Origin: Candidatus Lokiarchaeota archaeon
GTDB taxonomy: Archaea > Asgardarchaeota > Thorarchaeia > Thorarchaeales > Thorarchaeaceae
DNA: 34,171 bases
Reading direction: 5' to 3'
NCBI GenBank assembly: GCA_014730275.1
Contig: WJIL01000044.1
Location: 1-34,171 of the forward strand
Of the stretch, positions 23,257 through 32,320 are shown piece by piece. Within the stretch, counting starts at the first letter, position 1. Every line of letters begins with the position of its first letter. The position numbers and the translations under genes are program-made. The notes under the pieces were generated by a model that ran no database searches, was not told where the DNA came from, and saw only the letters and a list, made by a program, of their open reading frames with translations.

Positions 23257-24216
23257 TTATAATCTTCTAAGCGTCTCATATGAGCCGTACCCATCTGTTC
23301 TATCGTTGAGTTTGAATTTTCCGAACGATTGAACAAGCATAGATTCCCTTCCTGAACGGTCAGTGAAAGGTACGGGCACAATTCGTCCCGGTTCTCCTGT
23401 GAGCTTGTATGTAGTTCCCCTCTTGTCTTTGAGTTCGAGTTCTGTCCTTAATGGGAATATTTCGTCATCTCGGAACTCATGTGAAAGAACCTCTATATCA
23501 CGAAGTGGAATGTTTTCCCCTTCCCGGAAGATGAAACCTCCTGTTGCCAATCGTCCATCTTCTGCAATTACGGCTGCTGGGTTCACTGCGAGATGCTCAT
23601 CAAACCATATAACGAAGTAGAACCAATTGCCTACACCAGTCCAGTCTCTGATGCCATGAGTGTGATCTCGCTGCCCCATCACATCTTTGATAGAATAATG
23701 GTCTTTACCAAGCTCTATTGATCCGGAAATCTTTGCTATTTGTTCCCAATGCTTATCTCCCGATTTCTTCCCCAATTCAAGCGACTCACTTGTCATGTGC
23801 TCACTGTACTCATAGGGCTCATTGATTGGATCGAAATTCAGGTCGATGTGGGTTTGTAGGAGGTCAGATATGATTTGCGGGTTTTCTCTTGCTTCGGGGA
23901 GATTCTCTGAATCTTCCACCACAACCAATGATCCGTCAAAAGAATATTTCCACGTTCCATCTGATTTGGGCTGATGAGATACACCGCCGACCTCGAGACT
24001 ATCTGGATAGGATTTACCTTCATCGGTCGTATGAAAAGCTGCAACTGACCCATCCGGCAGAAAGAGAAACAGAAATGTCATACCTTCTGGCCTATTTGGT
24101 TTGAAGCCAACTCTGCTCATGAGTCCCAATTCTGTCTTTTTGTCATAGAACAGAAAATAGTAGCTCTCGTTCCAGTTAGCATCCTCTGAAGTTGGTTCAT
24201 GTGTGATTTGTTCCAT
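23257..24216 (-). CDS. CrtC/AttH-like (DUF7064-type) beta-barrel protein
   Basis: The 319-residue product has two beta-rich halves. Landmarks are NESYYFLFYDKKTELGLMSR near the N-terminus and QRDHTHGIRDW in the second half. These resemble the lipocalin-like hydroxyneurosporene-synthase (CrtC)/AttH superfamily and its DUF7064/7065 relatives, whose members bind hydrophobic molecules such as isoprenoids or sterol-like compounds; some hydrate double bonds. No signal peptide or membrane helix is seen. The ATG lies 6 bases after the stop codon of the phosphotransferase gene, with GGGGA of that gene's last codons serving as a plausible ribosome-binding site. The two are almost certainly co-transcribed and probably act on one substrate. 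Function by family: moderate confidence. Substrate: unknown. Confidence 0.65.
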   Translation of the reverse strand: MEQITHEPTSEDANWNESYYFLFYDKKTELGLMSRVGFKPNRPEGMTFLFLFLPDGSVAAFHTTDEGKSYPDSLEVGGVSHQPKSDGTWKYSFDGSLVVVEDSENLPEARENPQIISDLLQTHIDLNFDPINEPYEYSEHMTSESLELGKKSGDKHWEQIAKISGSIELGKDHYSIKDVMGQRDHTHGIRDWTGVGNWFYFVIWFDEHLAVNPAAVIAEDGRLATGGFIFREGENIPLRDIEVLSHEFRDDEIFPLRTELELKDKRGTTYKLTGEPGRIVPVPFTDRSGRESMLVQSFGKFKLNDRTDGYGSYETLRRL

Positions 24217-27102: not shown

Positions 27103-28161
27103 TCAATGTACTGCTATCTTATATCCGGCAAGTACGACGATTACTAGCCCAGTGAAACCAATGACAAACAACAAGCCTTGCTGGAGGCCATGGCGCGTTG
27201 GCTCCGTATTTTGAGTAGTTATTTTTGGCAAGAAGGGATAATCAGCATTCTTTGTTAGATTCAGACACTCCCCTCTAACATAGGCCGATACGTTAAATGG
27301 CCCCGAGGTGAACATCTCTTCATCTGGAGGATGGGGATCCCACGTATTCCACCCAGAAATGCCGATTTGGCTGAAGATGTGCTTGGGAATGATGGGCTTG
27401 TAGCTGATTCTTCTAGCTGCCCAAAATGAGCCTGCTTCTAGTTCCACTATCAGGGTATAGGGAGATATTGCATAGACCGTAGTCAGTTTTGTCAAATCTG
27501 TACCGAAAGGACAACCCGGCGCGTCTCGGTAGTAGTTGAGTGAGAATGCAACATCCTCTGCTGTAAGCGGTTCGCCATCTGTCCACGTAACATTCTCAAT
27601 CATGTTATAGGTTATGCGGGTGTGGTTCTCTGGCACGGATGAATTGTCTGCGTGTGTTTCAGTAGTGTAGTCTGTTGCGAACCAATTGATTTCATTACCT
27701 TCCGGATCCTTTCGAAGTAGACTGTCATAGAACATCTGGTCAATCGTGTCAGGGACTGGGGAAGTACCAAGCATTAAGTTAAAGCTGTCCACATAAGAAA
27801 GACTTGCGATTGGTAATGTGTTCGTAGTTTCGACCTCACCTGTTTCCATGGGCTGTGCTTTGTATGGCATCCACCATGATTCAACCCCTTGGTGATGTCC
27901 CTTTACAAATTCTTCAAAACGATCAGTTCTGTATGCAGACAGATACTTGTTGTCGTAGGCGACAATAATGGGAGACTCATACACAATTATTTTCTGAATT
28001 TCGATTGCAGCTTCGCGTGCTTCTTCAAATGATTCGGCTTCAAGCAGCTGTTCTTTCCAGTATCTGAAGCTAGCATTTCTCGCTTCGAGAATTTCTTGAT
28101 ATGGCTGATACTGAGAACATAAGCATCCCCATCCACTCACTATAGTCGAGAAGCCAACCAA
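27103..28161 (-). CDS. Family 5 solute-binding protein, C-terminal part (frameshifted gene)
   Basis: This frame continues the gene that starts at 28931 but is one base out of phase with it, so it is not an independent gene; the TTG at 28161 has no ribosome-binding site. It first completes the last lobe of an oligopeptide-binding protein (RYWKEQLL, AAIEIQKIIVYESPIIVAYDNKYL). It then holds the segment normally found at the N-terminus of SBP_bac_5 proteins: a substrate-lobe start around IASLSYVDSFN, the signature NVTWTDGEPLTAEDVAFSL, and GPFNVSAYVRGECLNLTKN. It ends with one membrane helix (about residues 325-347) and a short tail. Such proteins capture peptides or other solutes for an ABC importer. 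No importer permease or ATPase of that type is next to it. Confidence 0.7.
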   Translation of the reverse strand: MVGFSTIVSGWGCLCSQYQPYQEILEARNASFRYWKEQLLEAESFEEAREAAIEIQKIIVYESPIIVAYDNKYLSAYRTDRFEEFVKGHHQGVESWWMPYKAQPMETGEVETTNTLPIASLSYVDSFNLMLGTSPVPDTIDQMFYDSLLRKDPEGNEINWFATDYTTETHADNSSVPENHTRITYNMIENVTWTDGEPLTAEDVAFSLNYYRDAPGCPFGTDLTKLTTVYAISPYTLIVELEAGSFWAARRISYKPIIPKHIFSQIGISGWNTWDPHPPDEEMFTSGPFNVSAYVRGECLNLTKNADYPFLPKITTQNTEPTRHGLQQGLLFVIGFTGLVIVVLAGYKIAVH

Positions 28162-28931
28162 TCCACAGTGAAGTCTTCGAAACGATTCTCAAGCAAACGG
28201 ATATCGAAGTATTTTGTCTTGCACTTCATATCGTAGGGATCAGCTTGGGCTGCTGACGCATTAATGTGAAGCTCTTTGAACGCATCTTCAAGCGTTTCCG
28301 CTACTGCGAATTGTAAATCAGAGTCCCAAGAAGCATCAATCCAGATGTCAAATGGCTCTCCATTAGGGGCCTCTCTATAACCATTTGTTTCATTGATTTC
28401 GAAGCCGGCATTATCGAGGAGTGAATTAGGATATTCAATTTTCGCTTCGTAATAATGGTAACCGAGGTCATCCTCCGCGGAGAATGGATTCATCGTGGGA
28501 ACAGGTGCGTCAAGGGGTTCAGCGTATCCCCTCCAGGTTTCGTTGGCTACCTTTTCTTTATCGAAGGCAAATGCGGCTGCTCGTCTGAGAACAGTCATAT
28601 TCAACGGATACCTTTCGTAATTGAATAGGAAGAACCCATAGCTATTCCGGTTTGTTTTTACTACGTCTATGTTTGTAGATTCCTCTAATTCTTCGAGATA
28701 CTGCGGATCAATTGAATCAAGAATGATTTCGATTTCTCCGTTCTGAAGTGCTGCAATAGCGTCTTCTTGATTTTCCGTGATTTTGTACATGACGGTATCT
28801 ACGTATGGCCCCTGCCTATTGATATCCACATTGTCTGCATCTCCCTCAATAAATAGCAGAGACTGAGCTATCAAGAGTACGAAACCTATCCATGCGAGCA
28901 GAAAGAACTGTTTTGGCCTATTTTTATGCAA
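28140..28931 (-). CDS. Family 5 solute-binding protein, N-terminal part (frameshifted gene)
   Basis: The TTG at 28931 is the likely start: AGGAGAGGGTGG lies 7 bases upstream (28939-28950), and the protein then opens directly with a signal peptide (KQFFLLAWIGFVLLIAQSLLF). Frames further upstream only add a polar, unlikely extension. After cleavage it begins with GPYVDTVMYKI and AIAALQNGEIEII, which normally sit in the middle of SBP_bac_5 proteins. The usual FAFDKEKV and NPFSAEDD segments follow. The frame stops at 28140 in FTVDWLASRL, and the rest of the lobe continues in another phase. A one-base loss (or two-base gain) near 28140-28160 explains the break. It could be a true inactivating mutation or an assembly error. 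Confidence 0.7.
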   Translation of the reverse strand: MHKNRPKQFFLLAWIGFVLLIAQSLLFIEGDADNVDINRQGPYVDTVMYKITENQEDAIAALQNGEIEIILDSIDPQYLEELEESTNIDVVKTNRNSYGFFLFNYERYPLNMTVLRRAAAFAFDKEKVANETWRGYAEPLDAPVPTMNPFSAEDDLGYHYYEAKIEYPNSLLDNAGFEINETNGYREAPNGEPFDIWIDASWDSDLQFAVAETLEDAFKELHINASAAQADPYDMKCKTKYFDIRLLENRFEDFTVDWLASRL

Positions 28932-28938
28932 TAGAGAA

Positions 28939-28950
28939 CCACCCTCTCCT
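28939..28950 (-). promoter_or_regulatory. Strong ribosome-binding site deciding the TTG start of the binding protein
   Basis: AGGAGAGGGTGG on the minus strand, seven bases before the TTG at 28931. It is the best ribosome-binding site in the area and fixes the start just before the signal peptide. Confidence 0.6.
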
Positions 28951-31646: not shown

Positions 31647-31768
31647 GCTGATACATTCTCCATTCGTTACTGTCTTATGCTTCTAGGTTCGAGATGATTA
31701 CTTAGTCATTTTGTGTATCAGAAATTCCGTAGGAATCTCCTTAAGTAATGTTTCAATTGGTTTTCCAA

Positions 31769-31775
31769 GGAAGGA
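31769..31775 (+). promoter_or_regulatory. Ribosome-binding site choosing the second ATG of the 4-TM protein
   Basis: GGAAGGA lies 8 bases before the ATG at 31784, while the upstream in-frame ATG at 31748 has no such site. It supports the shorter product. Confidence 0.5.
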
Positions 31776-31783
31776 TTCACCAA

Positions 31784-32320
31784 ATGGACGTGATTAAGGA
31801 AATTCATGAGAGAGCTTCACTGTGGACTTTCTTCGGGTTTTTGGTACCAGCGTTAGCTGTTCTTGCATTGATGGGTCTGCTGTTCCAAGCACCGATTCTC
31901 ACAATTACAGGTGGCCGCCCCATACTTGATGTACGCCCGTGGTATTCGTTTGAAGAGGCAGTACAACTGTTCAATCTGCTTGGTGAAAATGGGAGAACCC
32001 TCTACAGCCAGCAGCAGATTCTGGATGCCGTCTTCCCGATTCTTTTTGGAACCGCCTTTTCTCAAGGCATTGCTCATGTGAACAACCTAAGAGGTGAAGA
32101 GGATACCGCATGGCGCAAGTTGGTGTTGCTTCCTTATCTTGAGACATTCTTCGACTATCTTGAGAATCTCCTCATTGCCACCCAGCTCATGGCTTTTCCC
32201 GCGCTATCCCCGGTTGTGATTTCGTTTGCTTGTATTGCAACAATTGCAAAATGGGTTTTGCTGATCCTCGCCGCATTTTCCTTTATTGCATCAGCTGCGA
32301 AGTCAGTTTCCACAAACTGA
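31784..32320 (+). CDS. Conserved 4-TM membrane protein, unknown function
   Basis: The start at 31784 (178 residues) is favoured by GGAAGGA eight bases upstream; starting at 31748 adds 12 residues. Four hydrophobic segments are visible: the first soon after the start (FFGFLVPALAVLALMGLLF), then a loop with LDVRPWYSFEEAV and GENGRTLY, then three more, with the motif PYLETFFDYLENLLIA between the second and third. The combination of a G-x-x-G-R-x-x-Y loop and an acidic FDxLEN helix is one I associate with an unnamed family of small membrane proteins in bacteria and archaea, without known function. It is divergent from the FtsX permease and 116 bases ahead of GAPDH, which has its own promoter. Confidence 0.7.
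   Translation: MDVIKEIHERASLWTFFGFLVPALAVLALMGLLFQAPILTITGGRPILDVRPWYSFEEAVQLFNLLGENGRTLYSQQQILDAVFPILFGTAFSQGIAHVNNLRGEEDTAWRKLVLLPYLETFFDYLENLLIATQLMAFPALSPVVISFACIATIAKWVLLILAAFSFIASAAKSVSTN

Follow-up and report, generated by a model that had tools for sequence, protein, structure and literature searches.

The gene at positions 27103–28931 (minus strand) of the window (the whole 34,171-nucleotide stretch of Thorarchaeales DNA analysed here) poses the following question: is the solute-binding protein of family 5 (SBP_bac_5) that it encodes truly circularly permuted, as the first-pass annotation proposed, and, if so, is this the oddity of one damaged gene or a working design? The gene is split into two open reading frames (ORFs), and both exceed the gathering cut-off of the Pfam SBP_bac_5 profile (PF00496, 32.4 bits) as follows: The upstream ORF (28140–28943) matches profile positions 144–341 (94.6 bits, E = 9e-27) and the downstream ORF (27103–28161) matches positions 9–148 (68.5 bits, E = 7.5e-19), so the canonical C-terminal part precedes the canonical N-terminal part, and the colinear N-to-C order of the profile is absent from the chain. 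The two blocks join at profile position ~144–148, practically without overlap or loss, and the complete order is signal peptide, profile 144–341, C-terminal end, profile 9–148 and membrane helix.

All features lie on the minus strand. The first ORF, from a TTG start at 28931 to 28140, encodes the signal peptide and the canonical C-terminal part (profile ~144–341), whose middle and C-lobe segment begins with GPYVDTVMYKI and occupies 28200–28814 by profile match. A single-nucleotide frameshift zone at ~28140–28165 then splits the gene. The second ORF (27103–28161) encodes the canonical C-lobe end, a fusion linker leading from the canonical C-terminus into the canonical N-terminus (the WMPYKAQPMETGEVETTNT region, 27811–27870, located by alignment with its position counted along the ORF), the canonical N-terminal segment with NVTWTDGEPLTAEDV and GPFNVSAYVRGE (27220–27645 by its match to profile 9–148) and a C-terminal hydrophobic helix, the predicted membrane anchor (27106–27186, Kyte-Doolittle maximum 2.36). 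By hydropathy, the N-terminal hydrophobic segment after the TTG and the C-terminal helix predict export and surface retention.

The gene starts 117 bp from an upstream FtsX-type gene, and no Opp permease or ATPase genes lie beside it. A canonical N-terminal lobe ahead of the gene, which the first-pass annotation had named as the mark of a truncated double-lobed protein, was sought in the flanking six frames, and no further binding-protein piece was found in 20.0–27.1 kb or 28.9–34.2 kb of the window. Among the neighboring genes are a 190-aa ORF (31748–32320, plus strand), which contains hydrophobic segments, matches nothing in Pfam and lies between the FtsX-type gene and GAPDH, and a DUF7065 plus DUF7064 protein (23257–24216, minus strand) that adjoins a PEP-synthase-like gene.

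The frame interrupted in the window is intact in the same-genus orthologue (G001:C140), a single unbroken 615-codon frame that is 81% identical to the window gene over the downstream ORF and, like it, lies between an FtsX-type permease gene on the upstream side and a PEP-synthase-like gene on the downstream side. The dN/dS values of 0.17 and 0.16 in the two parts of the window gene indicate purifying selection on both. Together, the intact orthologue and this selection imply that the permuted gene either lost its function only very recently or still has it and is mis-assembled; the window copy itself may be non-functional owing to the frameshift, unless the break is an assembly error.

Type A chains: distribution and fold

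We call the arrangement of the window gene type A, in which the cut falls between NPxYF and GPYxDK, in a loop of domain I (profile ~143; residue ~210 of Bacillus subtilis AppA), and use type B for chains cut in the C-lobe (profile ~287; DppA precursor ~370). Distinct complete ORFs were sorted with an independent 553-position profile built from nine canonical-order Asgard solute-binding proteins (SBPs), which gave 69 of type A, 20 of type B and 26 in canonical order. The median blocks on this profile are 247–542 then 54–243 for type A (n = 69) and 398–538 then 64–382 for type B (n = 20). The comparison of domain order among homologues that the first-pass annotation had suggested thus yields 69 distinct complete ORFs with the swapped order, and with the E-values above they exclude a chance match.

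A scan of one genome per prokaryote species gave 48 loci, nearly all labelled Candidatus Thorarchaeota, and a profile across the fusion linker matches 45 of 47 same-family genomes, 43 of them at E ≤ 2e-60. Type A is present in at least 43/47 genomes of this family, and the earlier suspicion of a lineage-wide design is in this way borne out for Thorarchaeota. Canonical-order SBPs occur alongside type A in several Thorarchaeota genomes, and type A extends to other Asgard families (genomes G031, G032, G087, G090 and G100). The top matches of a full-length type A query to plasmid records are in two pieces, i.e. canonical, and so type A has thus far been seen in Asgard only. The 137 of 228 Asgard genomes that match the junction profile are unusable as a count of permutants, since canonical and type B proteins match its N-part. 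Assembly chimeras as the cause of the layout are ruled out by its recurrence in independent MAGs and in the single-contig genomes G021, G043 and G087. A 916-aa protein of another genome (L154:1174-3924; G029:C87) has a type A-like start and a second half without a significant N-part match, and from its sequence it may be a very divergent permutant.

How much of this genome's binding-protein complement is permuted? Searched with PF00496, the whole genome yields 29 hits, which resolve into 13 type A loci (C95, C21, C6, C138, five in the C61 cluster, C89, C20, the window and C96/C52), one type B locus (below) and one sub-threshold fragment; judging from matching end sequences, the C96/C52 locus appears to be split over contig ends. 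Most of the other type A loci are single intact ORFs of 607–894 codons, the 609-aa C95 protein being one example. No canonical-order family-5 protein was found among the 29 hits, and for this reason peptide-type uptake of this Thorarchaeota genome appears to rest on permutants. The C20 protein (L032:7873-15414 = G000:C20:20872-28413) is 2513 aa long and consists of a permuted SBP followed by a subtilase (Peptidase_S8) domain and a C-terminal helix. It also has repeats of weak PKD-like similarity, and junction matches in G002, G008, G016 and G023 have frames of similar length (2310–2597 aa). The C61 cluster (L041; G000:C61:50381-63207) holds its five permuted SBP genes with one unrelated opposite-strand gene in between and has no permease among the listed ORFs of at least 250 codons.

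The profile blocks place the two parts in sequence, but do such chains close into one binding protein? The type A profile aligns to AppA (1xoc) in two swapped blocks, 324–529 on AppA 12–209 and 7–273 on 212–479, which meet at residue 209/212, and the type B profile aligns to DppA with 202–532 on 25–367 and 35–189 on 375–525. Nearly all of the canonical chain is thus accounted for a single time by each type, and the cut is clean. An AlphaFold2 model of the type A homologue L043, computed from 37 type A sequences, is one two-lobed chain (pLDDT 92.5, pTM 0.89) in which confidence is high across the hinge and the fusion linker as well; the non-closing fold that the first-pass annotation had considered is not what is predicted. 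Foldseek, which keeps chain order, aligns ~311–335 of the 538 columns of the type A model to cluster C SBPs (TM 0.40–0.48, AppA the best), a partial coverage that is expected of a permutant, and all family and structure matches are to SBP_bac_5/cluster C. Profile order, intact single-ORF homologues, a confidently predicted closed fold and the swapped alignments to solved structures all support the circular permutation first read from the window as real.

A second cut site and the origin of permuted chains

The first-pass annotation was correct about the type A permutation and missed the second, more widespread cut site of type B. Contig C1 of this genome encodes a 577-aa type B protein that starts at profile position ~288, ends at 287 and is followed by a helix, and its gene heads a run of OppB, OppC, OppD and OppF-like genes. 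A close relative of this protein (L155, genome G021) is in canonical order, and BLAST aligns the two in swapped blocks of 48% identity over 361 aa and 42% over 191 aa, so that they form a near before-and-after pair of permuted and canonical order within one archaeal family.

Type B is common in other Asgard families, and a tblastn search of its fusion region against plasmid records finds it in haloarchaea and Alphaproteobacteria, where it heads permease/ATPase operons. A full-length type B query is covered over at least 80% of its length in 55 plasmid records, almost all of them, among the matches listed, in one uninterrupted piece. Outside Asgard, the type B chains that were read stop right at the cut, without a C-terminal helix. 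Three plasmid type B SBPs from Alphaproteobacteria and haloarchaea (L207:3138-4736, L206:3102-4751 and L215:2444-4120) are annotated just as "ABC transporter substrate-binding protein". A junction match in Phaeobacter (L210) was rejected as a permutant, as it proved to be canonical.

Trees were built after rotating the permutants to canonical order. All type A proteins fall in one clade (SH-aLRT 90 and 84). Type B, in contrast, requires a minimum of three changes, placed on well-supported branches, and its monophyly is rejected by an AU test (p = 7e-58, log-likelihood difference 299). Given how divergent the rotated C-parts are, we call several origins likely rather than proven, and the canonical order of L155 is possibly a reversion. 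Permutation probably occurred on more than one occasion, and at two loops. A broader reading, toward which we lean, is that cluster C SBPs have been permuted repeatedly across Asgard, haloarchaea and Alphaproteobacteria, with at least three origins at the C-lobe loop (type B) and one at the domain I loop (type A), and that in some Asgard lineages the canonical topology has for the most part given way. If so, a fold order supposed to be fixed in a major transporter family can shift in evolution, with two loops as hot spots.

As to mechanism, the likely first step would be an in-frame tandem duplication of the mature SBP domain, after which the first N-part and the last C-part would have been lost while the signal peptide and anchor were retained; we infer the same origin, a tandem duplication that lost its outer parts, for the window gene. 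Genome G022 encodes an in-frame tandem fusion of two canonical SBPs (L162:6690-9617; G022:C1) whose copies are 51% identical over 311 aa and which is flanked on both sides by 100-N assembly gaps. This locus (L117/L162) was rejected as an ideal transitional form whose end would coincide with the type B cut, since that end is such a gap, and only the in-frame C-to-N tandem fusion is used as evidence.

Function, anchoring and alternative readings

We conclude, with a probability of roughly 0.88, that the window holds a frameshifted gene copy for a naturally permuted cluster C (OppA/DppA-type) SBP; on this reading, such proteins would be working peptide-type binding proteins of Opp-like importers, their chain rearranged when a tandem duplication lost its outer parts. 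The evidence that the permuted architecture exists is strong. The type A chain is cut at the AppA ~210 loop, its old C- and N-termini being joined through the short linker, and it would fold like a normal SBP, be exported by its signal peptide and be held at the cell surface by its C-terminal helix; peptides or similar solutes would bind between its lobes and be delivered to Opp-type ABC importers. The role as binding protein in such importers is deduced from family and operon context, which likewise suggest the peptide-type substrate class.

Could the architecture instead be irrelevant in the window, the gene being a decaying pseudogene or an assembly artefact? The frameshift favors this, but the unbroken orthologue, the low dN/dS of both parts and the intact paralogues elsewhere in the same genome all argue against it, and the break concerns the window copy alone and not the permuted design; we regard it as possible but on the unlikely side. 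The in-frame tandem fusion in G022 also lends some color to the view that the window protein is what remains of a longer, double-lobed or tandem (N-C-N-C) protein, with its outer parts lost or located elsewhere, and not a working permutant. That is highly improbable given the 69 distinct complete ORFs, which have exactly one copy of each part with zero overlap and most of which run from a signal peptide to a C-terminal helix, the lack of any flanking SBP remnant at the window gene, and a homologue model that closes with high confidence.

Type A proteins might also pair up as part-swapped, intertwined dimers, or serve at the surface as receptors or as traps for peptides, and not be importer subunits: many copies, that in the window included, are orphans away from permease genes, and Ig-like stalk repeats or a subtilase domain are attached to some of them. 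This is quite unlikely, since the monomer model is confident throughout hinge and linker, and one type A gene, at C96, does adjoin permease and ATPase genes. In Opp systems, orphan SBPs commonly share one importer. Selection for C-terminal membrane tethering, as suggested for Treponema pallidum TpMglB-2 (PMC4990184), might alternatively have driven the permutation. By hydropathy nearly all Asgard permutants (type A, 67 of 69; type B, 18 of 20) have a C-terminal helix, compared with 10 of 26 canonical-order SBPs, a pattern in keeping with tethering; the permuted proteins thus do have the C-terminal anchor that the first-pass annotation described, but its idea that the anchor had moved there is weakened by the canonical proteins that can also have one and by the haloarchaeal and alphaproteobacterial type B proteins that end at the cut with none. 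As the latter are untethered, tethering cannot be the whole cause, and we consider it unlikely as the driving force.

Comparison with known binding proteins

SBP_bac_5 ranks among the largest families of binding proteins, and its profiles and annotation treat chain order as fixed; permutants go unseen because they are split into partial matches and generically named. Their best NCBIfam match, for type A and type B alike, is Opp4A (NF045467), with 140–146 bits for three permuted relatives and 93 for a fourth, all below the cut-off of 650. They match that model in out-of-order blocks and are not members by it.

TpMglB-2 (Tp0684, "cluster Bc") is a natural circularly permuted ABC-importer binding protein that still binds ligand and closes, and is membrane-tethered (PMC4990184). 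It resembles types A and B in being a circularly permuted SBP but differs in its Type I/cluster B sugar-binding fold, in the position of its cut and in being bacterial and outside SBP_bac_5. In the literature covered, which excludes most subscription journals, permuted family-5 SBPs are represented just by engineered sensors, together with this cluster B case; natural permutation is therefore known in cluster B and apparently undescribed for SBP_bac_5/cluster C. Natural permutants offer ready-made tests of the effects of chain order on folding, hinge motion and permease docking, and templates for permuted biosensors, which at present are engineered by hand.

Within the family, the type B proteins of Nitratireductor (WP_113156578.1) and Halalkalicoccus (WP_238532955.1) are likewise permuted SBP_bac_5 proteins that head ABC-importer operons; unlike type A they are cut in the C-lobe (~287) and not in domain I (~143), and they have no C-terminal helix. 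With the canonical cluster C SBPs (AppA, 1xoc; E. coli DppA, 1dpe and 8z1y; OppA) the permutants share the family profile and, by alignment, both lobes, and the operon partners of canonical proteins are the same as those of permuted relatives. The differences from AppA and DppA are that the chain order is rotated and that the Asgard members are mostly anchored by a C-terminal helix.
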